A DNA stretch of 64,000 bases, taken from the NCBI RefSeq assembly GCF_035083965.1, contig NC_089726.1:6701501-6765500 (forward strand), given 5' to 3'. Made by a program: the position numbers and the translations under genes. The notes beneath the pieces are model-generated. The model made no database searches. It was not told the DNA's origin and saw nothing but the letters and a program-made list of their open reading frames with translations. This document shows, piece by piece, positions 14,901 through 60,625 of the stretch. The DNA is from Branchiostoma lanceolatum (lineage: Eukaryota; Chordata; Leptocardii; Amphioxiformes; Branchiostomatidae). Numbering within the stretch: position 1 is the stretch's first letter; every line of letters begins with the position of its first letter.

Positions 14901-17900
14901 CCATGGGTTTACATTTAGATCAATGGAGAACAAGAGAAATCATGATAACATACATGCACAATTGTCGTGCAATAAGATTCTACAAATTTAGGCTACTTTG
15001 TACTCTAGCCAGCATCCCAGCTGCTCATAAAAGCTCCACATTTTTTTCCTTTCCATCCCACTATTGCCTTAAAGTGCAAAAACACAAATTAACATTACGA
15101 AAAATAACTGAGTGACTAGATAGCAAGGTTCTTTATTCATAACCAGGATCTGTACACAGCCACAGTTGATGTTTTGGTGACTGTCTGAACATTACCTTCC
15201 TCATGCAGGGAAATAACTGACTGATACTATTTCACACTGCAGCTAGGTGTCACTGCTAACAATGCAGTCTCAAACGTATTGTCATACCATAGCTACTGTA
15301 CACTTATACAGCTGCTAGTGTGGAATAATAGTATAGTAACAGTAAGTATTACCCTGAGGAAGGTCACAGACGATCACTGAAACGTCGGCTGTTGATTGTA
15401 TATAGATCCTTGTGTGAATAAAGACCCTTGTTATCCAGTGATTTTCCAAACTGATGCAATTATTCACCAATATTGTGGGACTATTTGGCCAGAAATAGGG
15501 AACTGAGGTATCCTTCTACATGTATATCAGTCATGGAAAAGGTATTGTACATGTGTTACATACTAAATTTTTGTTCCTATTCCCACCAGTGCGGACTATG
15601 GGAAAACCTTCCAGAACATCAGTAAGAAGATCAACAATGCCTACATCAAGAAGGACAACGGAATGTACAAAAGCTTGCTAGACCCTGGAAGAGTAAGCAT
15701 TTATAGTGTCATTCATTACTAGCTGTACAGTCAGCTATTGTAAATAATAACAACAGAGTGAATATATAATATCATAAATAAATTAGTTTGACTTACTAAG
15801 TTGACATCTGCATTATGTAAATTGTTCCATGCCAGTCAACTCAGCAGAATATTGCACTGGAAAACAAGCGCTGAGTCAAAGCTCAGCACTGGAATTTTAG
15901 CTAGGATTTATAGACAGGGCATCCAAAAATTGCGGGGGGCGGGGGGGTTCTATGGATCAACTATTGCCTGGTAGCTTTGCATGTGAACAGTCGCAGTTTG
16001 TGTGGGGAGGAAACATGTACATGTGTATGTAATTACCAGGGAAGCAGGGTGTGCTTAAAAGTTTTGACATCCCCTGCGAAAGGAGAGGGCCTGTTTTCTT
16101 AGTTTAGGGCATCTAAGAGACGCCCCAATACCCTGCTAGCTAATAGCTTGACTTCACTCTCTTTAAAAAAACAAGCTATTTATGCTTAGGATTGATTCCC
16201 TGTTTTCTGTCTTGACAGGTTCTCCTCGTGTCGTACATGTCAGACGGTGAGAGTGCAGGCTCCAGGATCTATGTTACCACAGATGGGGGGGAGACCTTCG
16301 ATGGCATCACTCTCAACTTTAATGTGGACACTATACAGTTCCATCTGAAAAACAAGGACTATCTCCTGGCACACACATCCCAAAATGACGTAGGTGGTAC
16401 TGTTCAATTTCATGATTTTTGTTGTTGTATTTTTGTATTGTTGTAAATGCCGTGCGTCTAAAATGGTAGAAGACGAAACACATTTTGTAACATGCGTTCA
16501 TACAAATTGTTCATACTTGTATCTGTTACATCATAAAACTTTGAAATTCATTTTTGTATATTCCAGCACTCTCTCTACCTGAGCAAGGATTTTGGCCGTA
16601 CCTGGTCTAAGGTGCACGACTATGTTGCTGACTTCAAATGGTAGGTATCAGTCAATGCTATAAGTTGTAGGTTGTCAATTTGACAAGATGACAGTTCCTC
16701 TTAGCTTAGTATGATCATCTTGTAAAATAACTTGCATCATACACAATGTATGCATTTGTATGTGACCTATTGTGGCTTCTGTCAGAGATACACAATATAA
16801 AGTATAAACAATTGGTACAGGATCTTGACTATTTGGTTTTTTTTCAGCGTCACGCTTGCAGGGCTTGAAAGTAATTTTGGGGAATACACATGTTGTAGAT
16901 GCACTGGTGCACTTACCTGAAAAATTTAGGTGCACAACATAAAGTAGAATGTCAGCAAAACCTTATCACAAACCTTCCTAAGTAAAATAACAAAGATTTT
17001 ATCATTTTTCTGACACGTAAATGGTATTACTGATAAGACTATGCCATATACTGGACTAAGTGTACAATAGTGCCTTATAGTACGTAACCCTACACAAATA
17101 TCTATGTGCATTTGTGCACCCACAGTCAAAGATTAGGTGCATAGCTCCAATTTTGGTTGCACTAAAGTTTCCCTTGTACCCAATATTTTGAGTCCTGTAC
17201 AGAAGGCTACATTCTAAGTAAATGTTTGACATTTCAAGAAGTGTTATGCTTACATGCAGTTGTGACTTCTTTTGCAAAATCAGTCAAATGTTACAGTTGT
17301 GACCTCTCTTGCAAAATCCATGAGAAATGCTATAAGTTATATGATTTTTGTGTGTTTTTTCCATAGGGGCACTGCCAGCTATGACACAGAGAGCACAATA
17401 TACCTGACATACGACCCCAAGCACATGGCTTCAGGTTTGTTCACTTAAGGTTTCCTTGAGCTATACAATGTACAATGTATCAATAATTATAGACCATTGC
17501 AGAAAATATGCCTCTTCAGAAGAAGAGCATTCAAAGCACAGAGAGGTGATTGGCTGCCTGTTTCAGCCAATCAGTGAACAGTTTAACAGTGCCAGTTGAA
17601 ATTCATTATAGAGAAATACATGAACAATACACGTTGCATCATGTTGTTAATATTTCATGCAGTGAAAGAATGACATAGATGTTTGAAAATTGTTCCAAAT
17701 AAAGATATCTTTGTGCAGTTACTTTCAAAATGTATTAAACAAACTGAGTAAAGTCAAACACTTTCAGAATCTCATTTTCATTTGCTCAAGAAATTTAGAA
17801 CTATGGTGACTTAGATGTTCTTTTTTCCAAATTAGTTCAAACTCAAACTTCAAACTCATTACAAACATTATCTAAAAACTCTTGTTGTGACTTTGAATTG

Positions 17901-20900
17901 TCTGTAAATCCATATGCAATTGTTTTCACTACAAAAGACAGTCTAATGTATTTGTGTTAAAATCTCTAGGAGGGGGATCCTAATATCCCAGGAAGGGCTG
18001 GGTTAATGTCGTTGTGGGCATTCGTAGTTGGCCACCATTTGGTGCCAAAGTCTATTTAGCTTATAGACTAAAGCCTGGTCGAACACAGATTGTCCAATTC
18101 CTTGACTGACGTTTGTCCACTTGTGTACAGCTGGTATGTATCCTCCGTCTAACCTGAATTCAGACATTGACTACTATGATGACTATGGAATATGGGGACT
18201 TGAACACCCAAGGCGTAGGTCCAGTTTTGTCTTTCATTGGTATGATGGACTTGTGGGGGTGGGTTGGTGGAAGAAGTGGTCCGGTCCGGATGGTGAAAAA
18301 CATGATCCAGTGGGGTCAAGGGGTGGAAAATCCAGTCCAGCCTTTTCATGTTGGGATAAAAGGGAACACATGAGCGGGTACCAGTTTGCTTGCAATCTGA
18401 CTGTTTTCTGCCATGGGGCACAACCGCATTCAGGTATAGAAAAGATTGGATTGGTTTTTCCTTCCCTTGATCAGACTGGCTATTTCACCGTCACAACCCA
18501 GACATGTTGGTTGCTGGTGATGGGACAGCTAACCAGCTATGCCATGAGTGCAACTAAAACCCGAAATTATCACAAATTGGTGTGAGTCCCAAATATCAGC
18601 CTTGGAGGAGCATGTACCTTTAAGTTGATCCGTAGTCTTTAGAATAAATGTACAACTTAACATTTTCTTCATTTTGCTACAGCGGAAAGTTATAACTATG
18701 ACCTATTGAAGAGTACTGATTTGGGAAAAAACTTTGTTGGTGAGTATTGCTGAAATATTTATTTATTTATAACCTCATTGCTGAGATACATCACAGTATA
18801 CATTACTGTAAAAATCAGAACTTTGAATTTACTACTAGGAATATATTTTTATTGCCCACAATTTTGTAAGCTGTGACAGTAAGACGCCAATGGATTTCAT
18901 GACGCGTATGAAACCCTGGTTCGAAAGCCAAAATGCTACGTCATATTCTACATGGATGTCAGTTGCTTACCGGTGCTGTTGACTCATGACCTCATGGTAT
19001 TTGTTTTTGTTAATTGCCAAATAGGAATTTTAGTTCTTAGTCAGATACAATGTTATTGTTACATTCACACTGATTATCCTCCCAATGACTTCACACTGAT
19101 CCTGTCCCTGGTGCTGAACTTACATTCACACCGATTATCCTTCTGCTGACTTCACACTGATCGTTTCCCTGGTGCTGAACTTACATTCACACTGATTATC
19201 CTCCTACTGACTTCACACTGGTCCGAACTTACATTCACCCTGATTATCCTCATACTGACTTCACATGGGTCCTGTCCCTGGTGCTGAACTTACATTCACC
19301 CTGATTATCCTCATGCTGACTTCACATTGGTCCTGTCCCTGGTGCTGAACTCACATTCACACCAATTTCCTCGTACTGATTTCACACTGGCCCTGTCCCT
19401 GAACTTACATTCACACTGATTATCCTCCTACTGACTTCACTCTGATCCTGTCCCTGGTGCATAATTTGCATTCACACTAATTATCCCGCTATTGACTTCA
19501 CACTGGTCCTGTCCCTGGTGCTGAACTTACATTCACACTGATTATCCTCCTACTGACTTCACACTGGTATCATGTGTCTAGTAAAAGCACTGTTAGATGC
19601 ATACAGACCTCATCCTCTTGATTTTAATTCTTTTCAGTGGTGGCCGAACATGTGTACAGCTTTGGTCAGCAGGGACAGTTCCTATATGTTTCCATTGAGC
19701 TGAATGAAGTAAGTGAACACTTAGATTTTTGGTAAGATTTATAAAGATTGATTTATCAACTTTGAATGTTTGATTGCACCCAGTCCTTTGTCCATGCTTT
19801 TCCTAAGATTCTGATGAAGTAGAAACCCTTGGACTAACTCATGTTTTATGTAATCCGATATCATTGTTTCTCTGCAGAACAACTTTACCAGAGTGATGCA
19901 TGTGTCTAGAGATGGTGGAGGGACATGGGAACTGGCCCAGCTGCCCTCCATAACACCAGACAGGGTGGGTACAAACTTTGGCCTGATTTTGTGAGATTTG
20001 TGAAAATAGGCAAAAATGAAATGAGTGTGACAGAAACTACTTTAAAGCTGGAAACATACCAGCTTTCATGCATCCATTGATTTTGGCCAGTTGCAAAAAA
20101 CGATAACACAGCTGTAAACAAGGAATCATGTTCTGAATGTAAGGCAAATTAAGTTTTGTGACACTGGCAGTTCTGGAAATTATACAATCGAATGTCAACC
20201 ACTTTAAGCATTGTTTTTAGCTTTAGCTACTTTGTTTGGTGAATCTCAAGGAATATGATGATTGATGATTGTCATGAAAGTGCCGCAAAGTTAGCAGGTG
20301 CAATGTTTACTCTTAGACTAGCATATTAATGAATAAAATGTAACATTCTCTGTCCAATGAATGAAAGATATCCTACTCCCTTCCAGTTCTATTCTATCCT
20401 GGACATGTCGGAGGGAATGGTGTTCATGCATGTGGACGATGAAGGAGGTGAGCGCTCAGTTGTATTTATTTGTTCAGACCCTTGTAGTGCCGCATAGGCC
20501 AGAAAGTTTCCTTGCTGTTCCAGTAAGTTAAGTTAAAGTGACCCGGGCGTCCTGAAAAGACGCATAGGGGTGGCGCCCATCTCCATTTCTATAGCCCTTG
20601 GGCCACACACATTTGTGCAAGTCACTACAGCAGGGGGCTGATCCACTGGTAGTGATGTATGTGTTTAACTACCATGTATGTTATATACTCTTTCCCAAAT
20701 GCTGAGTGCTAAGCAGAGAAAGCAGTATGTACCATTTTTTAAGTCTTTGGTATGGCCGGGGTTCAAACTCACGACCTACCGTGTACAAGGCGAACACTCT
20801 ACCAACTAGGCCATTGCACCGGTCCTGAGCATGATATATTTTCACTGGGAGGGGTTGCTAGCAAAGTCGTTTTTCTTTTGTTTGCATACTGCTTAATGGT

Positions 20901-23900
20901 TACCCTAATAAAGATGTTGTCTTTCTTCAGACACTGGAACTGGGACCATTTACACTTCAGGTGCAGATGGGATCATCTTCTCTGTGTCGCTCACATCACA
21001 TTTGGTAAGTGAAAGTTGAAGTGAGAGTGATCTTAGAACAGTTTAGCTCAATGATTCAGATTAGAAGAGCTAATCTTCCACTGGTCATGACGGAGAAGAC
21101 AGATGCTACATGTATGTACAGTATTTACAGGTTCTTTGTACAGCGGAAATGCCCCTAGCTCTTTTCGACAAGCACAATGAACAGTGGACCATGGTGTAGC
21201 ATCCCGCCCTAAGGACTACAACCATTTCCAGTAGCGTGCATGTTTGGTGTTAGTGACAACAGCCGGGATTGAACTCAAGTTGCCTACCACTCTAGACTAT
21301 GCATGCTACTTATAAGACTGGCAGCAGATCTAAAGATATTCGGAATAACACGATGTTTCATATATCCAGCATTTATACAAACAGCATGTAAGATGTATGC
21401 TAAATGTATGCTAAATATGATGTAATTTGCATAATCAATTATGTAGTGATATATATGTATAAAATATGTACAATGTATATGTTTTATTACAATTGCCCAC
21501 ACAGTACCCAAACTTTGAAAGTGTGACAGACTTCTACAAGGTCAAGTCCCTCAGAGGAGTCTATTTGGCCAGCCAAATTAGGAAAGGTACGTTGACTTCA
21601 AATCATCTAGCAATACATCCAGCAGCAATAACTATGTCATGAACCATGATGAGAGGTGGTATGGCCTCAGTTAAGTTTGGGACAGCATCTAAAGTAACTG
21701 ACAATGTTTAACTTCCTTATTTATTGCAATGATTACTCTTATACATGTATATTTGACAATGTCACAATACTGTATATTTGGGACTACATATATCAAAATA
21801 CCTTATGTTTGTGACCGCATTGTTAGCAGCAACACCTAGCTGCAGCGTGGAATAGTGCCAGTCGGTATTGCCCTGAGGAAGGTGACAGACGGTCACTGAA
21901 ACTTCCGCTGTTGACGATATAGATCCTGGCTGTGAATGAAGAACATAATGTTATCCAGTGGTTTTACAACCTGATGGAATTATTCCCGGATGTCACTCTC
22001 TTTCCAGACAAAAGCATCAGGACAATGATAACGTACGACAGGGGAGGGGTGTGGCAGCCTGTCCCTACTCCAGCAGGAATGTCGTGTGAGAAGCCCTCTG
22101 ACCAGGTGAGCCTGTACACACCCGACTGACTTTTACATGCCATCATTGGTTTCAGTGGCGTCTTCTTGGCGTCACGGTTAGGGCGTTTGCCCAGAACCCA
22201 GAGCTCCTGGGGTTCAAATCCCCTGATATGCCACCAAAGTTGTGCCCTTGGGAGAGGCACTTATAACAACTTTACTCACTCCAACCAGGTGTAGAAATGG
22301 GTAACTGACTTTGGTTGGGAAGGTAAAAAGCAGTTGAAGGAGAGGGTTGGGCTCTGCCGTCGAATACCATGCCCCTAGACACACTGGATAACAACTCATT
22401 GCCCCTACAGCCTCAAAAATGCAATGGGACTTACCTTTACACATGTAACTATCTTTTTTATATTGGTTTCTATATTATATCACACAAACTCTCACTGTTT
22501 GGAATGAAAGAAAGAAAATAATTGTATGCTTCCAGAATTTCTGCACATCATGTACGGTAACTATTGATTATTGTTTCCTATTCCAGTGTGGGCTGCAGAT
22601 TCACAATCAGTACAGCAGAGTGAAGGGTATCAACGCTCCCATGGGTCCACTCAGTGAACCTAACGCAGTAGGCCTCATCCTGGTCCATGGTAGGTGATGC
22701 TGTCTTATCAAAGAATGAATGTGTACAATGTGTGTTTCGGTAAGGTTGCATGAAACTAATCCAGGTGCAGAAGCCAAGAAGGTTATGTATTTCTTGCTGT
22801 TTGTGGTTGGGTTTGTTTGTTTGTTTGTTTGTTCGTTTGTGGACTACTTTGGAGGAGTATAACTCAAGCACTGGGGTTGATGATAAGTGTCACAATGAAA
22901 TGTATGTTACCTGAATCAGGATGCGGTTAGCAATTAAATACTTACAATAAAATCAAGTATATGAGCCAAAAGAGCAGCAGGCTCATGTTATATACATGTA
23001 TTGTAGTTAATGTGTAAAAGAGAATGATGCTTTGTAATCAGGCACCGGTGTTGAAATTAAAGAGGGTGATCATGTTTACTGTTTTTGTTCTAGGTCATGT
23101 GTCTGATGCGCTGCAAACAACAAACCCGGATGTTTACATCTCTGACGATGGTGGCTACAACTGGTTTAAGGTAACCTTTTCATTACATTTCACTCCATAC
23201 CATAGGTATAAGTTAGAGTGAAATATATTGGGGGCAGAGAGCGAGTGGTGTAGATTTTGGCCCCCTAGTGGTTTATGTTTTGACTGCAGGGACCAATTTT
23301 GTTTCAAATTTTGAAAGAGAATAACATGATTTTTGGTATGTAGCTTAAATGATGTTTAACATATCAAATAATAACTATGCATATCAGGAGCTAATGTGCA
23401 TAATCAAAGTCTAGATAAATCTTGCTTAAGCTCTAATTTCCTTCCAACATCAAGAAAAAATTAACATTCCTGTCCTTAGCATGGCCTGATTTACCAGTCT
23501 GCTTGTTCCTCTAGGCCCTGGATGGTCCCCATCACTATGCCATAGGAGACCATGGAGGTTTGCTTGTTGCTGTGCCCGTATCTGCAGACCGCTTGGCTAA
23601 CACTATCAGGTATATACGTTAGGTTCAACTTCTTCTCTTCATATCAGAAAGTAAAGTTGTCAAACACTCCGGGGACTTTAACTCTCTGAACTGTAGTATT
23701 CTGCGGAATTTTGGCTGACTCTCTCAGAATTCTGCAGAAGTGTCCCTGAAAACATCTCATTGTTACCTGGATATTTACCTTTTGTTGCATTGTCTGTAAT
23801 TCATTTGGTCAATCTACTCAGAAAAAAAATCAAAGTTTAGAGTGTCTTGCCTGATTCATAGTGTCGCCTGTTATAATAATTTTAACAGATACTCCTTTGA

Positions 23901-31000: not shown

Positions 31001-32554
31001 GTTCTTCCAAAACTCATACTACAAGCCGTACATACGTATATTTATGTACAAATTGTACATGCAGGTAACTTTGGTGTAAATAGATGAGTCTGTTTTATAT
31101 AAGTATGAAGAACAGTACACTGTCATAAATAGCAGAAACTACAAATGTGAATTTAAAGGAAGCTCATGTATGCCAAAAAGTTACTCAAGCAACTGGATAA
31201 AATTTTGAAACAGTCACTTTGACTGTTTCAAAATTTTATCCAGTTGCTTGAGTAATTATTTTCGGCGTATTTTATTACCTGGATGTCTAACCTTCATCAA
31301 CGAAGCTCATGTATATCTGGATTTGAATAATAGAGAAGTAAGCTCAATATTACTGGTGTATAATTGTTTGTGGATTTAGGCCATCTTAGAGGATTTCTTT
31401 GTAGAAAGGGGTGTGTCAATATAGAATTCTTCACAAAATTTAAAGTGTGTTCATCGTCTTTTTGCCATCCACACAGCATTACAAAAAGGCTTAGCACACA
31501 TTAGAGCCCACCTACAGTGTGTGGAATGGACCTATACATTCATGTCCCACTATAGTCATACACATGTACAGACATGGTCTGTACAGTATGTCCTTACTAT
31601 GTAGATGCACAATTAGAGGGGTGACCAATAAGTTCTGCTCCTCACCAAGAAATAAGAAGTACAACTCAAATTCCAGGGCATAATTATAAGTACTGTATAA
31701 AGCCTTTTAGGAATGACTGACAAAATTCAAGCCATTGTGATCAGTACTACGAGAGCGACACCCAGTAAGAAATAAGATATTGTAATGTTAGGGGAGAGAG
31801 AAGAAACACCACTACACACACGACACTGATACGAATGCTTTCAAAAACATAATGTTGTTCTTGGCGAAGGTAATAACTAAACCAAACCTACTATTTACGA
31901 TAATACGGACAAGCCTTTCCCACTACATGTATTTGTTAATGACAGGCTTATTTCAGTCACTGTCAATGAAAAAATGATCACATCATCAGATTTCCCTGGA
32001 CAAATATTGGGCACTTTTTGGGTCTCATATATAAATCTTCATCAGTGTCGATAACAAGTATTTCACAGGCCTGTTTATGTATCAGGATCCCTTTAAAAAC
32101 AAAACAAAACAATAAAACATAAGGTCGAATATCAAACCATCATATACTTAGTCAAAAGCATCTTTTGAAACATATTCCTTTTGAATATGACATTCAGACA
32201 GTGGCTAAATACATACAATGTATATGTTCATGGTATGTAACCATACACATAGTAGTTACTCCACATAGTCAATTGACTTCCTCCAGCATTTTATCATGCA
32301 TGTGCCGCGCACCGGTCAACTTATATGACTTTATGAAAAGCTACATGTATACAACCGCAAGATAGATGGAGGCTGATGATGCGACCACAAAAGTTACTTC
32401 TCAAAATGGAAGGAAATGAACAGGATATTGTAAATAAAGAAATACTGGTCCACCAATAGCATGTGGCAAAAGAATGTTCTTTACAAAAGAGTATCTTGTG
32501 TCTTCCTAGGTGCAAGTTGCCATACAAAATGTAGATATCGTTTTATCGTTTTGA
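28011..32554. other. Sortilin 3' UTR and spacer to LSM3
   Basis: The sortilin transcript may end near the AATAAA at 28120 or farther on. No exon of another gene is seen. A diverged end of the TATTCTCC MITE family is at about 30694-30730 (ctctccaagcagatgtttgg), and a perfect hairpin is at 31181-31255. Confidence 0.55.
31181..31296. repeat. Perfect 36-bp hairpin made of type 2 repeat tails
   Basis: Arms 31181-31216 and 31220-31255 are exact reverse complements around a 3-nt loop. Each arm reads TTACTCAAGCAACTGGATAA and on to GAAACAGTCA, or its complement. The right arm continues with attacctggatgtctaacc, the usual tail of the type 2 GAAAC-core repeat. It seems to be two repeat tails in inverted order. 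Confidence 0.85.
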
Positions 32555-35500
32555 CTAGAAAGCTCCAGATCTGAGCGGTGGTGCTACAAGGATGACACCG
32601 TCTCCTCGGACGAACAGCATGGGAATGTTTCGCTTGGTGGTCTGGAAAAAAGAACAGAATGGAACGTCAACATTCCGTGAGCAATTTCATCAGGTTTGTA
32701 AGTCATAAATGCAAGTAGAGTTACAATGTTCGCGAACAGTTTCATTGGGTTGGTAAGTCACTGGATAACAAATTTCTTTGTGTACAACCAAGTGTTGTAT
32801 TCAATACCGACGTTTTGGTGACCTTCTGTCACCTTCCTCAGGGCAATACTGACTACCAATATAACTTACTATATTAACCCTTAAAGGACGGGATAAAATT
32901 TTCACGTGCATACAGGAATCGTAACTAAAATTTTCGGGTTTCAGGTGCCCCCACCTAGGAATTGTTTCGGGGCTGTAAAGTGCTTAATATTAATGCTAGA
33001 TAGGTAAAACTATACATTTCTGGAAAGCTGAGAACCTGTAGAATATGAAAATAACAAGAAAAAGACTGTATCTGGTTTGTAAGTAATGATACTGCACAAA
33101 AAAGACAGAAAAAAGGTCTTCGTTAAGTATCAAAAAATATTTGAAATGTATATGACATCACCCAAAAAGTCTAGAATCACTTTGAAAGTCACAGAAAACT
33201 ATTCTTAACTGCCTTGCTATTCTTCCTGAAGCAATAGAAACATCAAACAGTGTATGTAAGTAACTGTTAACTGTTTTATTCTTGCTAGCAAAGATAGTAC
33301 CTAAAGCCTTGGCCACTTGTAAAATGATGGGCTTCATCAGTGTTCCTCTACTGTTTGTCCAGGAAAATTTCCCCAAAAATGATTTGGAGGGAAGCCAGAA
33401 TAGGCTTTGCAATCGCAAACCTGTAAATACATGTCAAAACATGCCCCCCTCCCCATTGGCGAAGTAAACAAACATGAAGCACAGATTTGGCTGGATCAAA
33501 AAGTTGACAAAAAATTTCAGACAATCATGACCCTCACTCAATTACAATAAACCCCCATCCACTCGATTTTTTCATGGCAAAGAAAGAAAACAAAGGTTTG
33601 TAGCACTGTTACCTAGCATAGGGCCGGCTCTGAGCCTTCAAAATGCCGAAGTTTTTATCAATTTACTGTCTCTTCTGATGCTAGAAACATCGCCAATCCC
33701 TTCCTCAGTTGTGCCAACATTCCTTCTGGGTTCTTCATCCGACTCGGACATCGAAAAATTGTGATTTTGAGCTAAAAAAACACGGCAAAAACTTCCCAAA
33801 CACACTTGGGATCTTCCGTCAGATTTGGGCTTCCCCTGACGCATGCTAATGAGGCTGTATCCGACCTTAGCCGAGGGTCACCGGAGAATACCGAAACCCA
33901 AGCCAGTTGAGCCATCCCTGGTGGCGCATCGGGTGGAAGGCTGCAAGTCAGCCCTGATGGCTCATCGTGCTTTAAGGGTTAAGGAAACCTGCATATGATA
34001 GTGGACTTTTGAGCATTGTGTAGCGTACTACCTATGAAAGTATGATTTTCTCACTTTGTATATTTCCTCATATGTTTCCTCGTCTATCTCCACTGTTGTG
34101 ACTGTCTCCTCCACATCCCCAAGGATCATGTTCAAATGTTGATCGTATGCCTGGAAAAGAAGAGAATATATGCAGATTACTTCCTGTTGTCTGATATCCA
34201 TGCAGATTATAATGCAACTATGATATTGATGTTGGGATAATGAGTCAACAGTTGAGCAACAAATAGCCTGACATAAGACATAAAGTAGGTGAATGTGTGG
34301 CTAATAGTCTGTGTTTACACAAGCTCTCCGGCAGAGGTTAATGATGCCCACCCTATGGAGTGGTTACAGTCGTGCCGGCCGCTAGAAGCACGATTTTGTC
34401 AGGATAGTGTGGCTAACATGATATTTAAAAAAAAAATCATTCTTACATGAAGCCTTCCCCTCAGTTCTCTGTCATTCCGCATCTTCACATAAATTCTCTC
34501 ATCCAGGCTGAGGCGAATCAGGTCCAGCGGCTCTTCAACTACTGCTGTCTGCGGTTGCTGTAGAAATACAAGTTATCATCATCAGATAGGTACAAACTCA
34601 TTTGAAATTTACCTACAAGTACGAGGGACTAGCTATAGCCTCCATTGCAGACTCCCACGCCTTTTTTGTTATTGTTATCATTATTGGGTGGGCCAACTAA
34701 GTTACTCTCTTCAAAGCCAGGGGCTGAATTGCGAGGAGCTTACAAATACAATTGGCCTACCACAAACTAAAGCATCGGTGGACACAATTTTAAGTAAATC
34801 CTGTCTCAAAGATTACAGTTTTGATAACCTTACACTACACAGTTGAAAATTAAGAAAACTTGCCAATAGACTTATTTTGAGATTTACATACGTAAATCCT
34901 CAAAGATGACAATTGGCAACTAAAAGTTGACTACATGTTTACTTACAGATAATTGACCAAATTTGTTAAGGTACAAGTACAGGTCCGAACCTAAACTGCC
35001 AGTGTACCTGAATTCTTGTTTAGGTACAGCGCTACACAGGACCCCCATACAATGAAAAGGTACACAGCCTACACAGTACCCCCATTTGATGTCTTATCTG
35101 AGGGACGCCCCTTACCGAAGCTAGGTACTCATTTTCACCTGAGTGAAGTGAGGAAATTGTGTTACGTGCCTTTCCCATGGGCATAACGTCGGGGCATGTC
35201 AGATTGTCAGCAGTGTCAAGGGATTCGAACCCAGGACCTCTGGGCCGAACACCCTGACAATTACCCCATGTGGTGCGAGGTTAATTTTACTATTCACGTT
35301 ATTAGATTAGATTAAATGAACTTAACTCTTGTTTAGTTTTGTTTATGAAAACTGTCGCGCTATGGTTGAGCTTAACAACGTTTGCTGGCTCGCACGTGTT
35401 TTATCAGGTAACGTTAACGTTTTGTGGTGATTTCGCCGCAAACCGGTATCCCTCGGCCTCGGAGCACAGTGCGACAACAGCCTTCATACGAGGATAATAA

Positions 35501-39300: not shown

Positions 39301-42300
39301 ATCCAGTACAGATGTGAAGGATTCTTCATCTAGAGAGTCTGACGTGTTGAAAGTCGAAGAGATAAGCATTTCATCAGACGACAGCGATCTTGAAATCATC
39401 GACGTATCGAAACTCAGGACCAAGAAGAAACCAGGCAAGCCAAACCAGCAGCCTAGCAGAAAGATCATCTCTGAAGATTCAGACGAAAGCGTGGTAGAAC
39501 TGACCGGTGAAGATTCAGAAATCTGTAACGAGTGGGTAGAGGTGTACTTAGCAGATGAGGAGAGATGGGTGACAGTGGATGTGGTCAGTGGTCTGGTGGA
39601 CAGGCCAGAGGTGTTGGAACAGCGGGTGACCCGACCGATGGCGTACGTCGTTGGGGTGGACACTGAAGGCAGCGTGAAGGACGTTACCAAGCGTTACGCG
39701 GCGGGATGGATGACGTCTACACGCCTGCTGAGGGAGGATCGGTGGGGCACTTGGTGGACAGATACGCTCGGACTGTACTCATCGTCTGATAAGGACAGGT
39801 ACGTATATCAGCAATGAATTAATCTTCATTTAGCCAAACTTTTTATCTATTATCGAAATACGAAAGGAAAAGCATCCAGGGATTCATCTAAATCAGGAAA
39901 GAGGGGCGCTGCGCCCTCTTGTTTCAGCCCAGCACCCTCTTGTGGAATTCAGATTCTAGCTTAATATCCAGCATACAGCCTTCACTCAACAATCAATTCT
40001 TCCATAAATAGATAGAATTCGCTCCCTTGCCTGTGTGTGCTCCCTCTTATTAAATTTTTATAGAAAAAGCCCTGCGCTATCTAATTACTTAAACAAAAAG
40101 CATCTATTAGCTTACAGGTCTGAACTCAAAATAGCCAACAGGAAAAACAAATTGATGGTACACAATATCAGATGGGTGGAATTGTGCTGATGCTACCACA
40201 ATCAAAATGTGCAAGTCAACGAGTAACATTCTTACTCAAGTGAAATTAAATTGCAAAAGCAATGGCTGACTTTAAAACGCCAAAAACTAGGACTAAAGTA
40301 ATTTTGACCTGTCATTTCTCGACTTACTCAAAATTCCATACAAAATGTACAATCTTGCCGCCACACTTTCCCTGACTGATGTTCATGACTTCCTGTTCTT
40401 ATTCAGGAGCAAGAAGGAAGACATTGAGCTACACAGCAAACTTCTGCAGAAGCCTCTTCCAACCACCATAGGGGAATTCAAGGACCACCCTTTGTACGCC
40501 CTGCGGAGGCACCTGCTGAAGTATGATGCTATCTACCCAGAGACTGCAGCTGTGCTGGGATACTGCAAGGGAGAGCCTGTCTATGCAAGGTGCTGTGAAA
40601 TCAAATTTACACTCACAGGGTGTCCCAGAAAAATGTCCAGAAAGACACCTGTACCCAAGTAATTATAAACCCCATTAACATTAGCTCCTAAAACAACAGC
40701 TTATTGATTCATTAGCATACAACCTTGTCTTAACTTACTTTTCTATTGAACCATCTGAAATTGTCTTCACTTCATTAACATGTCTATTCAGAGTTTTGGT
40801 ATAAAACCTAGTTCTACCAGATCTTTCTTTAGTCACTGACGAAAGATAGCAGATGCTATCTGAAACGAATACTACCCGGAATGGATGGGTAGGGTCTACA
40901 TGGGATTAGTTAGTATCATTTTGTTTCACAAAATACTTACTACATGTAATTCACCACAAGTGGAATTCTGCATAGAGTTGACTGTATTCATTGATACATA
41001 ACCTACTATTGGAAAATAACAACACTTCTGCAGTTTAGTGCTTCTTTAAGATCTCGAGATAGATGGACAACATCAATGAAGAAGACAGACTAACAGACTA
41101 ACAAATGTTTTACTGACCTGTACAGGGAGTGTGTTCACCAGCTTCACACCCGTGACAAGTGGCTACAGGAGGCACGAGTGGTCAGATCAGGGGAGGTGCC
41201 GTACAAGATGGTCAAACACAACAACCCCAACTGGCTGAAGAGGAAGATGGAACGCCAAGGAATTTTTACAACTGGAAACGCTGATGAACCGACTGTAGCT
41301 CTGTTTGTACTTGCACTTTCTTTTGTTCTTTTGCAACCCCTACAAATTATACATGTACAGTACTAGCATTGGGTTGTTTATTTGTTGGTTGGTTGGTTGG
41401 TGTGTATAGTACTAGTACACTTATCATTGCTTTCAATTACCTACATGTCTGTATGTCTACTGCTTTGTGATTTTTACACTTTTAACACATTTTCAGGTTT
41501 TAATCCACGATTGGTTTGTCTGGGAGACTGTACATGTACATGTGGGAGTGTCTGTGGAAGAAGTCATAAATTTATGAGCCCTCTAGCAATTTCCATCCAA
41601 ATTGCAGTCAATGTTTATTGTTGAATTTTCTCTGTTTACTTTCCATTTGTACAGGTGGCAGACTGAGGACTACATGCCGCCTCTAGCTGTGGACGGTAAG
41701 GTGCCCAGGAACGACTATGGCAATGTGGACCTGTACCTTCCCTGCATGCTGCCACAGGGCACTGTGCATCTACAGATCCCAGGTAAGACCAGACAAAACC
41801 AGTTCTAACAAGAGTCCGTAGGACACAAATCTCCTTAATGTAATTATGGTGCTTGCTGTGTGGGCTTAAGTGTTCGGTACCCTCTTTACCAGGAATAATA
41901 AATTCAATAATAAGATCATCAGCAATGGTTCATAACATTTTATTTCATATTACAAAGTAAGTGACAATGAGTAACTTACTGCTTAAGTAACTATTTTTGG
42001 AGTAACTAACAAAGATTTCCCCTCCCACCATTTTGTCCTACTAGGACTAGAGCGTGTTGCGAGGAAGCTGGACATTGACTGTGCCCCAGCTGTGGTTGGG
42101 TTTGACTTCCACAGTGGCTGGTCACATCCGGTCAAAGATGGCTACATAGTGTGTGAGGAGCATAAGGTATGTAACTGGTTTGATTTTCATGAATGTTTAG
42201 AGTTTCCATTTTGGCATCATGTTTGTGTTATACCACTAACACAGAGACATGTACAAAACATTCATTATCATAAAGCCAGAAGGGATTGATCAATCATACA

Positions 42301-44614: not shown

Positions 44615-44745
44615 TAGCCTATACCAGGCTCCGTGGAGGCCATATTGGACCCTCTCTCCGTAGCCGACTCCCTTAGCATGCTATTCACTCTATTTGGCCA
44701 ATTTGTACTATTTTTCCAGCCATCCGCGGAGCCTGGTAGAGGCTA
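44615..44745. mobile_element. Short TIR element (TAGCCT...AGGCTA)
   Basis: The left end tagcctataccaggctccg and the right end cggagcctggtagaggcta are inverted repeats of about 19 bp. Flanks carry CAACTGG on both sides (44608-44614 and 44748-44754), a plausible 7-8-bp target duplication. Confidence 0.65.
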
Positions 44746-45979: not shown

Positions 45980-46115
45980 TCAGAGATCTGGTATAAAACC
46001 AGGTTTCCCGGTCCTTTCCTTAGTCACTGACAAAAGACAGCGGATGCTGTCTGAAACGTCAGTTTCAAAATTTTATCCAGTTGCTTGAGTAGCTATTTTT
46101 GGAGAATAACTGTGT
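45980..46115 (+). repeat. GAAAC-core repeat, type 2, copy 2
   Basis: The order is ctggtataaaaccagg, then tagtcaCTGACAA, a perfect stem AGACAGC/GCTGTCT with loop GGAT (46035-46052), GAAACGTCAG, and ttttatccagttgcttgagt. Compared with copy 1 the stem has changed on both sides (AGATAGC to AGACAGC with GCTATCT to GCTGTCT). Confidence 0.8.
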
Positions 46116-47810
46116 GTTTATATTGATATTAAATGATTTTTAAGGTTTCTTCCAATGACAGTGATGAAATTTTGGAGTCATTTTGGGCGTTATATTTTCA
46201 ATAAAAGCAAAACTCCTTGTGTTTAGCAATGAAAATCTAATACACATGACCAATGTAAATTACTTAATATTAGTAACCCTTTGTCTATCTGTACACATCA
46301 TGTACACCCCTTGGCATCAAATATAAAACTAACTTTTTGGGGCCCTGTCTCTACACAATCCACTCCTTTTTGTGTTGGAGATTACAGTTGAACTTTGTTT
46401 CAGAATGACTTCTACTAGCACTAACTTTCAAGTGATGATGAACAATAGATTGACAGAATCTCGTGTAGTTTGTTTTCCAACCTCTTTTTCCTGCTTTACT
46501 CCACACAACGTAAGTGAAAATTGGCATACATACACATGTACATACATGTATAGTGCAATAAAAACATAATGACACAGAAAAATGATTGTTACTACTTGTA
46601 TTGACAAATAAATAACAAATGAATACACAGAGCGGACCGGTTTGGACTGATACAACACGCAAGAACACTGAAAAGTGAAAGCTGTGGACTGGTCTTTGAG
46701 CCAGAAAAAAAGTAAAAATACCATGAAATTATGTCTTATAACACATTGCTATCTAGACATCCTATCAAAACTCTACTACAGCTGGCAATGTAAGATGAAA
46801 AAAATAACACTGAATCAAATCAGATAATAGCCTAAATTCATATTCTTTCTGTAACAGTCGGCACAGTTTTAGGTCAACAATGAAATGTGCGATGAAAAAT
46901 CATACAAGTTTACCATGAGGTACTGAGTGGAATCACAACCACCCCTATAGTTCATACTTCTCAATATCAATATAAAAAAACAAACACGCTTATGTGTCCA
47001 TCATTGTTTGGAGTTGTCGCTTAAATTGCTGAAGCGCGTGTCTTAAAGATTTACATCATCTTATCATTTATCTATACTGTACTGACTGTACACTTTATTG
47101 AGATTCATTTGTTTCAGTTTCTGTAGACAATTTAACTGCATGATTTAAATGTCAAACTTGTGCTATCTGACAAAAGTTACTGCAGCTTTGGGTGCTTAAC
47201 TATCTACAACATCTTCATTATGAATCATCAATAACAATGATTATGGAACTTATATATTAATTCAAATAAATTATGGCTACTACTTCATTGATTCTGTTCC
47301 ATTTTACTGCAATTAGATTTAATTAGACGGCATAAATACCACAATGGTGCATAATAGAATAATACATTTCCACCTCCGATAATCAAAAATTCTTAAAACT
47401 GCCTGAAAACTGCGAATTTTGGAAGACTTCGCACACTAACGCTAGGACAGCATTGTCTTTAGAATACCACATAACGATAAACCACATTTACATTGTTTGT
47501 GCACATTGGAGTAAGACTAAGTGCAATACTGAAGACAAGTTGTAAGTCTACCTTACATTCAACCGAAGACATCCCACTATAAAGCAAGTCTAAAATCTTA
47601 ATGCGTAGCAACATCTGGATACACCTTACACAAACCAGAATGTAGTTGGCTTCTGAATGATTGTCAGTTTCTTTAATTAAACTCACAACACACTTTTCTA
47701 GTCACTAACTAGAGTCACATTTCAGCACTATATGTTGTTCATTTCAAACATGATAGTTGTTAATAGTTGCCTATCCTGAGGAATTTGGAGAAATGAGAAA
47801 AAAAAGACCT

Positions 47811-50800: not shown

Positions 50801-52767
50801 GGGCTTTCATACAGACACCTCAGACAGAGGACGATGAAGCTTCTGAACTCTTCAAACTCAGCAGTTTGCAGCTGCTCACCATAGTAGGCTTCTTCGTGCT
50901 CTCGGAGCTCATCTGCGTATATCTTTGCCAGATGAGAGAGGATGACTTTTCCCGCATTTGCTGTTGTACCGCAGGCGAACAGAATGACATTCTCGAGCGC
51001 CAGGGCATCTTTGACTGTGTTGAAGGGCAGATGCTCGTGGGGACCATCTTGTGGCAGTCTTGTAGCAAGGTACCTTCCTGCTACAAACTCCTGCATCGTT
51101 GTGTGCGAGAAGAGCAAAGTTGACGGTGCCATGATGTCAAGCGACTTCGATCCCGATCTCAAGATGCCAAGCTCTAACAACAGGTTGATGCCGTCCTGAA
51201 TCGGTTCCAAGTCACAGAGGTTGAACATGGCTTTCTTCCCAAGAAGCCCGTCCATCGCTATCTTCCCAAACGGATTCAGGACTGCCTCGACGTCCAGTTC
51301 TTCCCTCGTCAGCTCCTTGTGATGACGGATGACGCAGGACAAGAATTCGCTGTAGAGCCGAGTCATCGTCTCCGGAAACGCCTTCTTTGGGTTGTCGTCC
51401 CACAGGACGCACAGAAGCCAGATGTGCAGGGAGGTCCGCTTCACGTCAACGGCAGTCACATTCTCGTACTGCTTCAGAGCTGCGATCAGTCCTGCTGCCT
51501 TGTGAGGGTTATCTGGAAAGTAGTTGTGAAGCAGCCTGTACGCACTCCGAATGGAGAAACCGGATATCTCGACTCTTGTGTCCATCCACTGCATCAGGTC
51601 TGGATAGTTGACGGGACGGGCGAAGACGATCACGCAACTGTCGGGGAAGAGCCTGCCCTGAATCAGCTTCCTGATGTCACCGTTGATGTCGGCACGTTCG
51701 TCGTAGCCGTCGATGAGAAACAGCGTCGACCACTGCGTTTCCTCGTCGAGAAGGAAGGCTTTCACGCTTTCAACGGAAGCAGCTGCCAGTGGCTGTGGAA
51801 ACTGCCTTCTCAGGGTGTCCCACAGGGTATCTTCAGCAGTGACATCTAGCAGATTTATGCTGAAGAGCAACTGGAAACGCTCCACTAGAAACATCCATCG
51901 CCCCCTGCTCCACTCTACAGGTACTTTGTTCAACAGAGTGGCCTTTCTAACCCCTGGGATGCACTGGAAGAAAATACGTCTTGGACCGGGCAGTCCCTTA
52001 CACTCAAACACGTCTTCGAATCTCTTGAGGCGGACCCTGTGCATGTCACCGGGCCTCTTTCCTTCCTGCAGGACTTCGTAATGTAGACTGACGTCTCGCA
52101 CGTCGACTAAGAACTTGCTATTCCACGGCAAAGGTGTTATTTGCTGCATGGTGCTAATGTAATGTTTGGCTAATTCATCCCTCACAGCATGGATTGAAGT
52201 GTCGGAGGTTGCAGAGGGCACCTCCCCTTTCTCTGCATAGGATCTGAAAGGACTATGGGGGCTGGTGTCCCCACTACTCTGGCCATAAACAAATCGTTCC
52301 CCTCCAATGAGAATGTCTATTGCCCTCCTCGGAGGTTTTGAACTACTGTCTGTGTGCTCAGTGATTTCCTGGTTAAGACTTGCGTTAGGGGAATGGGGAA
52401 AGGAATCATCCAGTAGACTTTTGAGATCAACTCCACTTGGCATTGGACTTATGCTCGCGAGGCTGGTATAACTTGAGGGTGATGCGAGTGATTTGGGACT
52501 GAGACACTGGCCACTTTCCTCTTGTTCATCAGAATGTACGTCAGCTCCACTGTCTGATGATACCTCGGCCTCTATCTTAAGACTAGGGGAGAGCAGCATG
52601 TTGTGACATTTGTCGGTAGTCTGTTGCAGGCACGGGGACTCCTCCATCTTAACTGTTCTATTCTGCCCACCCGGCGCTACAAGACAGGCCCTGCTATCTA
52701 GGCTTTTCCTCCTCTTCTGCAAAGTCTCTTTTGATTGTCCGATTCCTACAGGCAACTGCCTTCTCAT
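47811..52767 (-). CDS. NACHT-LRR (NLR-type) protein with degenerate P-loop
   Basis: One large exon, 52767 down to 49361, ends at donor gtgagt and joins in phase 2 to a last exon, 47895 down to 47811, for about 1163 residues. If the large exon were read through, a stop would come at once, so the splice is preferred. Residues 1-190 are Ser-rich, probably disordered, with no visible death, CARD or DED domain. A NACHT-type region follows (about 260-430): Walker B LFLIDGYDE (349-357) is good, but the Walker A position reads CIPGVRKA (269-276), so two of three glycines and the Thr/Ser are lost and only Lys is kept. A helical region follows, then ribonuclease-inhibitor-type LRRs (about 700-1135; e.g. 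LEDLDVSFNELGNGV, LKSLNVSGNEISFHG). NLRs are cytosolic immune or scaffold proteins; amphioxus has many. The ligand is unknown. A 5' exon may exist: an acceptor lies about 60 bp upstream of the ATG. Minus-strand ATTAAA at 47672-47677. Confidence 0.85.
48555..49120. repeat. Long imperfect foldback in the NLR intron
   Basis: The left arm (about 48555-48835) and the right arm (about 48885-49120) are diverged reverse complements. Pairs include gaatcttacaaatcatactt with aagtatgatttgtaagaatc, ggttcggaacctggt with accaggttctgaacc, and gcaaccatca with tgatggttgc. The only intron inside the NLR coding region contains it. Confidence 0.75.
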
Positions 52768-54869
52768 CGTCGCGTTGGAAGTGGGATTTCAGTCGCTGCG
52801 TTTCTGCCATTCTCATCAGCACCTGCAGGGACAAAATGTAGACATATACATGTAAATACAGATGTCAGAAATGGATATAATCAAAACTAGCACCAATGGG
52901 TAGAATTGAATGAAAAAAAAAAGATTTCTACTCTGTGGATATCATTGCACAATGACATGTCTGACAAAAAGTCAGCTTCTCAGACCCAATATCTAAGATG
53001 ATTAAATCATGATCCTGGAAATGTCCTAAGATGGATCTGGCCATGCTTGCTTGATGCTTGGTACAATGAAACTATAGGATGGCTGAGCAAAAAATTGAAA
53101 TAAAAATTTACATGAAATAGCTGTCTGATATGGTATTTATTTGTCTATATATGCCTTTATGGCTTATAATTTCTGTCACATTTTGACCCCGAATTGAACG
53201 GTTTAGTTTTACTCTAACTTCTAAGCGTTTAATGACTCAGCTGGGAAGGGATATCATAGAAAAGCCCATATATGGTCCCAGATGATGAGAAAGTTGGAAA
53301 ATAAGGGGGCTGGGGCAATCAGGCTGCACTATATCATGGATGATGACACGACCCACAGCGTTTACAATATGTACCTGGCCGTACCATGGAGAGTGTGGAG
53401 TGTAATTGATACTAACAATAGTTCTGCATGGTGTGTAGTTGAGCTGGTGTATTAACAAGCATGACAATGACAAAAGACCCAATTTTCGCAAGTCCAGACC
53501 TGGTTCCTGACGTTCGTTCTTTTTTTTTTTTTTTACCTGAACCTAAGCGTTTTTACAAGTCCAGATCAGGTCCAGGATTTAAATACGCAGCACTATAATC
53601 AACATACCTACAGGTAACACAAAAAATTTTAAGAATATGTTAAGTAGAAAACGAACATGAGAAAAACCATGTAAACACCGCTGCTGTCAGACAAGGTTGT
53701 TTTCATGCAGGTACACGGCCATGATGGTGACGGGACACTGTCTCCTATCAATTACGCTCTAACATATGATTGGCATTGCACATGAAAAGGAAATTTTGTA
53801 GAGAGATGTCGAAGACACAGTAATTCCAAGTATACAGGACTTGGACCTGATCCTCTGGACCTGGATCGAACCTAAGCCTGTACCTGAATTTTATGTAACA
53901 GTACCCCTAAGCACAGATATGTCAATAAACAGAACAAAGAAGTGCAATGTAAACTACACATTCTTAAATCAACTATTCAAAGCCATCATTTGTTAACAGA
54001 GTGTGAAATACAGGAACCCTGTTTTGAATTTCATGACTCAGATCAAAGATGTATTGTAACAGATATCCTTTGCCAGTGGCCGACCAAAAAAAGGGTGGGG
54101 TCGGCAGTTTTGGCCAGAGTTGGTCGAGTATTCCTATTCCTTGTCAGGTCTGTCTGCCATGACTGTGTTCCTGACTTTATTCATAGCAGAAAGGACTTCA
54201 AAGGAGGTTTAAACCTCTTTGATTACTACAGGGTGTCTTCTGACAGAAAAGACTCATGATTCTGCATTCTTCAGGATTAGTCATTGAGAGATGTGGTGAA
54301 GGAGTTAGTCACAAGAGTGCTTGACAGCCTAAAGTTGCCTTGCACAGACTTGTACTAAGCTTAGTCATCATGCATGGGAGACAACAATGGACAACTTACA
54401 GTCACTAAAGCAGATTCATATTGTTTACCTGGCCAGCGACAAAATGAACTGGGAGAAACTTACAGTCCCCCACTGTGCAGCTGACCAATGATGATGATGA
54501 TTAGTCATACTCATACACACAATCATGCAGTGTACATTTCTCAGAAAGCTAGGATTCTAGTAAGCACTAACTTTATAATATATTACACAAACTGTTCACC
54601 TTCAAGAAGTGTTTTGGAACAAAGTTGATGAATTTGCCTGCTACAAGTGCATGTATTTAAAATACATTTGGAGCATTCACAATCACATTAAAAGTGATCA
54701 ATCACATCAAATGAATCGGTTTGACTACATGTACCAAATCAATGTACATGTATATCAATTTACAAACACACACAGACACACACACACAATGACACACACA
54801 TACAAGCATGCACACACATGCACACACATGCACACACATATACACAGACACAAGCATTCACACACGTAA

Positions 54870-54901
<32 letters not shown>

Positions 54902-57575: not shown

Positions 57576-59305
57576 ATGCGGACGACATCGCTATCAGAAG
57601 GCTCTGTTAGGGGATGGCGGAACAGGTGTTCCATGGAGTGGCCCAACTACAGCTCGTTCGTTACATCACCGGTAATGGTTAACAGTTCAAAATATTTTCC
57701 TAACTTGGATATCAATGTTCTTTGTACACAACCAAGTGTTTTATTCAAGACCAACGTTTCGGTGACCGCCTGTCACCTTCCTCAGGGCAATTCTCACTGG
57801 TTCTGAACATCACGCAGTGCGAGAAGCTGTCGCTGCTAACGGATGCGGTCCCAAACGGAAAATATTTGGTTGCGTACAACGAACTTTGTTATCAAGTGAC
57901 TTACCAACAAGATTAAACTGTTCACCTATTAACTTGTTTACATTTCTACCCATTGTCTACATTGGCTATCGTCGTGATAGTGAACAACACACTGTTTTCT
58001 CTCAGTATCATTTATGATTTTAGATAAAACCCTCTAAAATTCAAAATCCCTAGCCGACATGTAACGCTAATTGAAAACAATAAAACCAATATTGTACACA
58101 CGTAATTGTAATACCTTGGCCACGGCCTGTTATATATCCTTCAAAAGTGCAAAGCTTGGTATACTAGTGTTACGTTAATTGACGTCTGTGCAATGTTGGT
58201 TTTTCATACCGCTAGATTTATATGCTAATCCTAGTGTGTTGCGCCGAATGGTGGTTAAACTGGCTAACGTTAGCTGGTTCTATTCATTCAGATTCGGAAT
58301 GCGTCTCTTTGTACACGAATAACGGGCGGGGGGCGACATCGACTTCCAACAACCTTTGACCCTTTGGTGATGTCATACTGGCGTGAATAAAACTCACGTA
58401 TCCAGAGCGATTGGGTCAGAAAGCTTAGGAAGACTGGGCGAATGAGTCGAAAATTTCGATAAGCACATTCTTTTTTTAGTTGGAGGACAGTTTAATTCTT
58501 CATAACGACTAAACGTGTTCTATTCCAGTGGTTTGCCGATCAACGGGAGTTTGTCATCTACCGTGCGGTGTGCGCCCTGGTCACCCTGAGTATCCTGGTC
58601 TACAGCATCCCCACGGACAGCAACAGGTGGTACACGTACTTCACCAACTGGGCGTACACAGCTTTCGCTCTCCACTTCTGCTGGGCCGCTGCCGTCTGCT
58701 TTCTAGACTACCGTAACAACCCTGATAACAAGCGGGGCAAATCGAGGGGTGGCCCGGCTAAAATGGCGTTGAAGATCGGCTGGGTAATCTACAACATCGC
58801 CATGCCAAGCGCGTTTTTTGTCTCGTTTGAATACTGGGTGTCTCCTTGGCCGGTGACTCTCGGTTTCCGCAGCTTTTTGCGTCACACTCTGAACTCCATC
58901 ATGGCAGTCATGGACATCATGGTAAGCGGGATCCCTTCACGTCTTGACCACGTGGTTTTCAGCGTGCTCTTCGGAATCGTCTACAACACCTTCGTGGTTC
59001 TATACTGGCTGCTCGATTGTCGTGGATACTTCGGGAAACCGTACATTTATTCTTTCCTGGACCTCAACACGGTTCCGCTCCAAGCTGTTGTCATCATGAC
59101 CGGTAGTAACTTTGTCATCATGCCGGCCGCTCACGCCGTCGTCTGTCTCTTGTACCAGACCCGCCTCGTGCTTTTGGCCAGGTTCAGGAAGAGGACAGCC
59201 CGCGAGGTCAAACTCACGCCTTGGCAGAAAAGCATCATTCCTATTGAAGTCCATGAAGATGTGGTCATGGATATGTTATCGAGTACAGACGAGCAGATTG
59301 TGTGA
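57576..59305 (+). CDS. rost-like: Rolling-stone-like multipass membrane protein 2
   Basis: Exon 1 is 57576-57671 (32 codons, donor gtaatg) and exon 2 is 58529-59305 (acceptor tattccag), joined in phase 0 for about 290 residues. The junction SFVTSP | WFADQREFVIYR corresponds to FYTTP | WLMNQAPFLVYR in gene 1. About six membrane segments are visible: FVIYRAVCALVTLSILVYSI, WAYTAFALHFCWAAAVCFL, IGWVIYNIAMPSAFFVSF, SIMAVMDIMVSGI, HVVFSVLFGIVYNTFVVLYW and VIMPAAHAVVCLLY. YFTNWAY and RHTLNSI are family-like. Function as for gene 1: known only from Drosophila myoblast fusion; not assigned here. A type 1 GAAAC-core repeat lies in the intron. Exon 1 is short and poorly conserved, so its start is less sure than exon 2. 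Confidence 0.8.
57713..57875 (-). repeat. GAAAC-core repeat, type 1, best stem
   Basis: On the minus strand it reads CTGAGGA, A, GGTGAC, loop AGGCG, GTCACC, GAAACGTTGG. This is the only type 1 copy here with a fully paired stem and an intact GAAAC. It lies in the intron of rolling-stone gene 2. Confidence 0.8.
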
Positions 59306-59359
59306 AACATCACTTGGAGCCTCGTGGCATACCTATCTTAATAACAACAGATGTTTTGG

Positions 59360-60625
59360 TTGGTTAACAAAGTTCTTTATTCACAACCAAGACAGCCAAT
59401 CACAGCCGAAGTTTCGATGACCGTCTGTCACCTTCCTCATGCATTCTGATTAGTACACTGCAGGCTAGGTGTCGCTGCTTACGATGCGGTACCAAACGTA
59501 TTGTCATTTATGTCATTATGGCATACCTGGGCCGCGAAAACGTTCGATACGGGTGTTCCGGACCGTGTGATAAATATAGAATACAACACGGGGTATTCCG
59601 TATCACCCGAGGTACCAGCCCGACCGCGGGTCGGATCGCCCGACGGCCGTAGGCCGGAGGGCGATCCGACCCGCGGGAGGGCTGGGACCGAGGGTGATGC
59701 GGAATACAACGTGTTGTATTTTATTTATGTCATACCTTGGCCATACCCACCCGAGAAAACACACATTTCAATGCGGAATGCGCCAGAAGTTGAGGGAGTT
59801 TTGTGTCCTCGAACAAGAAACTGTAGCAACATTGATTCCAATCTCCGAATCCGGTATTCGAATTTCCGACGGCCGCGCAACCGACGCGTTCGAAATGCGT
59901 TCGAAATATTCTATGGAAGCCTGTGTGATAACCCTCCCGAACCCTATGTGATCCGGATAGTTATCACACGGTCCGGAACACCCGCATCAGGCCCAGGCAT
60001 GACATAATTTTCCGTATCACACGGGGTTCTAAGTTGTTGTATCACACGGGCCTCCATAGAATATTTAGAATAAATTTCGAGCGCGCCGGTTGCACCGCCG
60101 TCGAAAATTCGAATACCGGATTCGGAGGTTGGAATCGATGTTGTTACAGTTTTTTGTTCGAGGACACAAAACTCCCTCAACTTCTGGCGCATTCCGCATT
60201 GAAATGTGTGTTTTCTCGGGTGGGTATGTCATAAATAAAATACAACACGGTGTATTCCGCATTCCCCTCGGTCCCAGCCCTCCCGCGGGTCGGATCGCCC
60301 TCCGGCCGATCCTACCCGCGGTCGGGCTGGTACCTAGGGGGATATGGAATACCCCGCGTTGTATTCTATATACCGTCCCAAACGCAAAGTATTGTCATCT
60401 ATACAAGAATAATTATTGTCATGCATACAAATATTAATATTGTCAAGCACCAATGAACATTGTCAGTTACTTCGTGAGAATAGTACCAGTCAGAATTGCC
60501 CTGCTGAAGGTGACAGACTGTCAACATAACGTCTGCTGTGATTGTATGTCTTGGTTGTGAATAAAGATCTTTGTTATCCATGTCAGTGATTCCATATCCA
60601 GCCTGATAAAATTATTCACAGATGT
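59360..60625. mobile_element. Type 1 GAAAC-core element interrupted by foldback insertion(s)
   Basis: The left arm (59360-59505, minus orientation, gtcaccttcctcatgcat) and the right arm (60470-60625, plus orientation, ccctgctgaaggtgacag) are the two ends of one inverted-repeat unit like that at 15121-15475. Between them is the foldback complex. The sequence caaacgtattgtcat at 59489-59503 resembles caaacgcaaagtattgtcat at 60381-60400, possibly a remnant of the target. Confidence 0.65.
59508..60400. mobile_element. Nested GC-rich foldback complex
   Basis: A unit 59508-60009 has inverted ends (ttatgtcat..catacctgggcc and ggcccaggcatgacataa). Inside it is a strong hairpin with arms near 59576-59723 (gggtcggatcgcc / ggcgatccgaccc). 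A second, partial copy lies in inverted order at 60035-60375, so arms of more than 300 bp pair with each other. Open frames here come from the repeats. The superfamily is unknown to me. Confidence 0.8.

Follow-up and report, generated by a model that had tools for sequence, protein, structure and literature searches.

Dispersed repeats with a minimal hammerhead-like motif in a Branchiostoma lanceolatum locus as candidate relics of Penelope-like elements

Repeats of Penelope-like elements (PLEs) from other animals often read CTGANGA-A/T-GG, and the minimal type I hammerheads carried by such elements, for which a 2017 study by Lunse, Weinberg and Breaker is said to be the source, are among the closest known systems for the repeats investigated in this study. 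The motifs in question lack helix III, and the parts of the literature considered here describe them as dispersed in metazoan genomes and as residing in the pseudo-LTRs of PLEs (PMC7761336; also PMC6155905), where they may cleave via dimeric motifs in a role that is called unknown (PMC7761336). Penelope elements, as far as the cited section goes, contain an inverted pseudo-LTR at their 5' end, mostly in a head-to-head arrangement, and are flanked by duplications of 8-10 bp in the quoted cases and by none in others (PMC3846280). In PAc, a Poseidon element of Anolis, the motif overlaps with the start of the ORF, mutants of the hammerhead are reported to still insert in vitro and the cleavage site coincided with neither the start nor the end of any RNA-seq read (PMC11167929), which renders the role of the hammerhead doubtful even in a known PLE. 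Metazoan non-LTR retrozymes, in turn, are portrayed as being arranged in tandem, with motifs that are canonical for the most part (PMC7229834).

The repeats described here are located in a window of 64,000 nucleotides from the lancelet B. lanceolatum, the whole stretch of DNA that was analysed, and they are best read as a further case of this already known kind of minimal PLE hammerhead. Both share the type I order, the absence of helix III and a GAAAC with a palindromic ACGU, and both are dispersed in non-coding DNA within pseudo-LTR-like units that are accompanied by an inverted arm. A possible difference from the minimal PLE hammerheads is the extra A after A9 that all nine copies of the window contain. 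Furthermore, we found no PLE ORF among the 20 ORFs that were scanned out of 87, and no full tandem copies among the profile matches. The arrangement also differs from the one described for PAc, since the motif here leads into a tail, several copies contain an AATAAA, and an ORF was not found. Among the literature matches listed, as judged by titles and abstract openings, none concerned a hammerhead element in Branchiostoma, amphioxus, lancelet or cephalochordate.

A first-pass annotation of the window had listed eight places on both strands where a hammerhead-like core is found. All eight were confirmed upon inspection of the core, with small shifts in position that place the start of the respective motifs at 32841, 57785 and 59440 on the minus strand and at 60501 and 46027, and an inverted ninth copy (core 15204, minus strand) was added, together with an inverted arm consisting of tail sequence only (57866-57928), both of which had been overlooked. 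The repeats are thus real, but instead of the proposed single dispersed family they constitute two, with six of the named places belonging to the family termed type 1 and two to type 2. Eight independent occurrences are ruled out by the alignment of the type 1 places across about 210 bp and, since the seven type 1 copies form one family, the recurrence of the core among them reflects descent.

Exact matches to CTGANGA-gap-GAAAC are found seven times in the 64,000-nt window compared to 0.94 expected, a number that was reached in none of 100 shuffles. Four of these matches fall within the repeats (15354, 21873, 40836 and 57785 on the minus strand) and three outside (19811, 51860 and 52800). If the exact core has to be combined with a stem II no shorter than 5 bp, three matches are left (21873, 40836 and 57785), compared to 0.08 on average across 12 dinucleotide shuffles, and tolerance of one mismatch in the core increases this number to 12 versus 3.25 in the shuffles (the largest count being 8), with half of the 12 matches being members of the repeats. 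A search for relatives by the loose pattern CTGANGAAGG-N6..24-CCGAAACGTC retrieved 36 stretches in genome_contigs, where about 36 are expected by chance according to our own arithmetic based on 19 fixed bases, 19 gap lengths, both strands and 257 billion bases. A version of the pattern ending in CCGAAACGT retrieved 15 stretches in viral_contigs, and five other patterns had no match in the same collection. Stem II reaches 5 bp in only two of these 51 stretches, so that we regard the whole set as chance matches.

The seven type 1 copies are distributed over five loci and score 133-189 bits in nhmmer, compared to a best score of 7.6 in five shuffled windows, with a profile that was built from the same seven copies. 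Their pairwise identity ranges from 57 to 76% over the motif and 75 columns on each side and from 53 to 72% on a separate alignment of the arms, and the length of a unit is about 210 bp, with one two-arm element of 385. At 15 kb, a right arm on the plus strand (15284..15494, 166 bits) contains a core at 15354-15386 with all 12 tested positions preserved, a damaged stem II and an AATAAA at 15417, and it is preceded by an inverted left arm on the minus strand (15061..15279, 161 bits), whose core from 15204 is changed at C3 and G12. The highest-scoring copy (21803..22014, plus strand, 189 bits) harbours a core with 12 out of 12 positions at 21873-21905, and a degenerate inverted tail can be discerned upstream by eye only. 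On the minus strand, the copy at 32703..32911 (154 bits) shows a change of G12 to A in its core from 32841. Behind this copy, at 32665-32705, a short piece of its 3' tail occurs once more, with scores of 8.8 and 11.1 bits that barely exceed the best of five shuffles (7.6 and 10.2). Another copy on the minus strand (57645..57860, 162 bits) retains all 12 positions in its core from 57785, with U at position 17, and is joined at its 5' end by a head-to-head arm, an inverted copy of the 3' tail on the plus strand (57866..57928), which was detected by two nhmmer models with 34.9 bits (E 3.3e-10) and 37.4 bits (E 1.2e-10). Finally, inverted arms and a flanking duplication define a single two-armed insertion at 59347..60632 with palindromic filler at about 59565-60371. 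Its inverted left arm contains the core at 59440 on the minus strand, where C3 is replaced by A, and its right arm the core at 60501 on the plus strand, where A6, G12 and A13 are changed. The filler between the arms is a GC-rich fold-back element composed of inverted repeats, and a Pfam search on seven ORFs of this insertion did not return any match better than E 0.26.

Type 2 consists of two copies of the motif on the plus strand and a palindrome that contains only the tail. The first motif (40836..40869), identified by the core check, is changed at U16.1, and the second, which was defined by the core check and a direct repeat, is changed at G8 and followed by the type 2 tail (46027..46107); the sequences on the 3' side of the two motifs are unlike each other. 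In the palindrome (31174..31301), recognized by its inverted and direct repeats, a 42-nt inverted tail is positioned head-to-head with a direct tail. Both families have in common the plan of core, stem and GAAAC, and the motif TATCCAGT follows the core at 46027 as well as in three type 1 copies out of seven, and recurs in each arm of the type 2 palindrome. Homology between the two types would nevertheless be putative, and the previous comparison of stems across subfamilies sets side by side two families that may be unrelated.

The resemblance to a hammerhead was evaluated at 12 core positions (C3, U4, G5, A6, G8, A9, G12, A13, A14, A15.1, U16.1 and H17). Three of the nine copies retain all of them, four retain 11, one retains 10 and one 9, in agreement with the changes in the core that had been noticed in several copies and that amount to one to three in six of nine cases. 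In the type 1 consensus all 12 positions are intact, and the core CUGAGGA, followed by the extra A, leads into stem II (GGUGAC/GUCACC) and further into GAA-ACGU-C. Stem I, which had been considered unclear, is formed in this consensus by GCC/GGC, an internal loop or a 2-nt bulge and CAGTCA/TGATTG, but it is weak in single copies. When the arms are shuffled, the consensus stem I obtains a P of 0.009 with an 8-nt 3' arm, 0.017 with longer flanks and 0.00015 with a 9-nt arm, compared to values between 0.01 and 0.79 in single type 1 copies. The longer 3' arm is found in the copies 15354 and 21873 and the shorter in 59440, 60501 and 15204, whereas 32841 and 57785 possess diverged arms. The same test did not detect a stem I in type 2, and its absence rules out type 2 as a working hammerhead. 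As already suspected, neither the type 1 consensus nor single copies contain a stem III of their own; the palindrome ACGU, a candidate for a stem III within a dimer, is present in five of nine copies.

When the type 1 consensus is folded without constraint, the pairs of stems I and II reach probabilities of 0.92-1.00, no matter whether the shorter or the longer 3' arm is used. The minimum energy fold adds pairs within the core, and the form with an open core has a probability of 0.012 in a model that is ignorant of the hammerhead core. Type 2, at minimum energy, adopts a plain hairpin, where ACTGAC pairs with GTCAGT using part of the core. With respect to conservation, the mean pairwise identity within the core stretch is 82% (600 of 732 cells), compared to 53% (712 of 1353) in the 75 columns upstream and 70% (820 of 1177) in the 75 columns downstream, and none of 20,000 column permutations reached this level. 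The best-kept window of the length of the core begins 5 columns upstream of it, with 84%, and a stretch of the tail around AATAAAGAA shows a mean identity of 82%.

A search with the Rfam hammerhead models, as had been proposed, returned no match up to an E-value of 10 in the window and two short stretches, in runs that took the DNA of the window rather than a consensus and with models that might miss a motif without stem III. Covariation was not detected in type 1, neither in the outer part of stem I (35 of 42 cells paired versus a mean of 34.6 after shuffling) nor in stem II together with inner stem I (82.3% versus 81.7%), where no pair was changed on both sides. The earlier statement that the stem stays paired upon divergence thus holds for a single compensated pair of stem II between the two type 2 copies (T-A in 40836, C-G in 46027) but for none in type 1. 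Since dead copies that decay neutrally are expected to show this pattern as well, the absent covariation neither supports nor excludes an active ancestor. Taken at the level of sequence, the motif is a candidate for self-cleavage, and its assignment to the hammerhead class is provisional, with stem II separated from A9, no stem III and no hit to a curated model. The initial hammerhead reading is therefore upheld with respect to core, stem I and stem II of the type 1 consensus but not by Rfam, covariation in type 1 or the plain hairpin of type 2.

These features could alternatively reflect a conserved stem-loop in the tail of a retroelement, such as a hairpin close to the poly(A) signal that serves the reverse transcriptase for recognition, whose likeness to a hammerhead would either be accidental or a dead relic already in the active source. 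We regard this explanation as rather unlikely. It would conform with the missing Rfam match, the stems of type 1 that do not covary, the pairs formed inside its consensus core at minimum energy and the ACTGAC/GTCAGT hairpin of type 2 without stem I, as well as with the nucleotide that separates A9 from stem II in each copy. However, the type 1 consensus retains every core position and forms a stem I in addition, and few stretches of the element are as well preserved as the core. The extra A has a counterpart between A9 and position 10.1 in the plus-strand hammerhead of CChMVd, although the latter is an unrelated viroid ribozyme of type III with its own stem III. According to the cited part of its characterization, this hammerhead works with A10, which lowers trans cleavage moderately, with U being better and C or G bad (PMC3705267).

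The insertions themselves offer a second line of evidence. An exact duplication of 15 bp flanks the two-armed type 1 insertion (59347-59361 and 60618-60632) and an exact duplication of 13 bp the type 2 palindrome (31159-31171 and 31302-31314), both unequalled in 300 random pairs, and at six of the eight loci tested flanking duplications did not go beyond chance. At three of the five type 1 loci (15 kb, 57.8 kb and 59-60 kb) a second, inverted arm is found head-to-head on the 5' side, so that the 3' ends face outward, and the type 2 palindrome is joined in the same manner. The left arms at 15 and 60 kb are closer to each other (72%), as are the right arms (69%), than the two arms within either element (63% at 15 kb and 64% at 60 kb), a grouping with a bootstrap of 0.998 on identities and in weak agreement with a tree of seven arms (79/88), and the change of C3 to A is common to both left arms (15204 and 59440). 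The two arms at 15 kb fold into one long hairpin (-156 kcal/mol, z -11.1) that buries the motif, whereas self-pairing is weaker in the element at 57.8 kb (z -3.1) and the copy at 21.8 kb folds no better than shuffles (z 0.13). The inverted arms and the duplications of 13 and 15 bp resemble PLEs as portrayed in the cited sources and thus agree with the suggested link to Penelope-like elements, but neither a reverse transcriptase nor a GIY-YIG domain was found in the 20 of 87 ORFs of the window that were scanned. Ten of the scanned ORFs are free of any overlap with the repeats.

We consider it reasonably probable that the repeats are truncated or non-autonomous relics of PLE type, whose ancestor bore a minimal, dimer-dependent hammerhead. 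In such a scenario, the repeats would be old and non-coding, with pseudo-LTR-like units of about 210 bp, and the type 1 ancestor would have contained a minimal type I hammerhead devoid of its own stem III. Two motifs within a multimeric transcript could then pair via their palindromic ACGU to generate stem III, and the hammerhead formed by the dimer may cleave after C17 and cut the transcript into units, by analogy to what was proposed for PLE hammerheads. Most of the copies in the window, having lost core positions or stems, are probably inactive today. The centre of the type 2 palindrome (31217-31225) is located within a few bases of the predicted cleavage site of a type 2 hammerhead, which is perhaps the trace of an RNA end made by cleavage or else chance. 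Since the inverted tails of type 1 begin elsewhere, we do not claim 5' truncation at the predicted cleavage site.

An elaboration of this proposal, which appears improbable, would assume a two-arm lineage of PLE type with a hammerhead on each strand, one arm being alive (CTGAGGA) and the other dead by the replacement of C3 with A, where A10 would be obligatory and the arms would conceal one another within a hairpin as long as no multimers have formed. It is likewise improbable that the repeats, rather than being a piece of a PLE, derive from a non-LTR retrozyme of metazoans, in which a small unit is mobilized in trans via circular RNA. As in the retrozymes described in part of the literature, the units are small, with no coding sequence seen, the motifs are of type I and the RNA of the 15 kb and, to a lower degree, of the 57.8 kb element is self-paired, and the large duplications are reminiscent of the 15 bp listed for Nematostella repeats in the cited text (PMC4918200). 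In contrast to retrozymes, the copies are single and inverted and their motif is minimal, the tandem copies that the first-pass annotation had advised to look for are not encountered as full units among the profile matches, the 21.8 kb copy lacks the pairing, and inverted arms, which are described for PLEs (PMC3846280), are absent from the retrozyme descriptions consulted. A very improbable origin of the head-to-head arms as terminal inverted repeats of a DNA transposon or MITE would suit the likeness of left with left and right with right arms, as if the pair had moved as a unit, but conflicts with duplications that are not of a short fixed length, the unequal lengths of the inverted arms and the copies where no second arm was detected. 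We thus retain the relics of a PLE-type element as the preferred reading.

For the window alone, the result is mainly one of ordinary annotation, describing old retroelement relics. Beyond that, a family of this sort, with one more nucleotide in its core, a consensus that can be recovered and clearly duplicated flanks at some insertions, would allow one to ask whether A10 is tolerated by PLE hammerheads as a class, and whether each insertion generates its inverted arm anew or the element carries it along.

The neighbourhood contains further repeats. Between 12690 and 13376, an inverted repeat with arms of 331 nt, which are 99% complementary and 25 nt apart, forms a young-looking palindrome. 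Two hairpin elements at 6756-6877 and 8098-8212 have ends that appear similar upon visual inspection (CAAGCAGAGGTTT-GGTCG and its complement) and are perhaps members of one MITE-like family; matches to Rfam microRNA models at both sites are below the gathering scores. Tandem repeats are located at 18998-19629, with a period of about 61 bp, and at 4235-4554, with a period of 36/42 bp. With respect to coding regions, ORFs with a Pfam Rost domain (rolling stone family) are found at 6968-7918 on the minus and 58496-59305 on the plus strand, about 51 kb apart, and the window also includes an ORF with a Rad4 domain (40297-40662, plus strand) and a NACHT-LRR ORF (49357-52788, minus strand).
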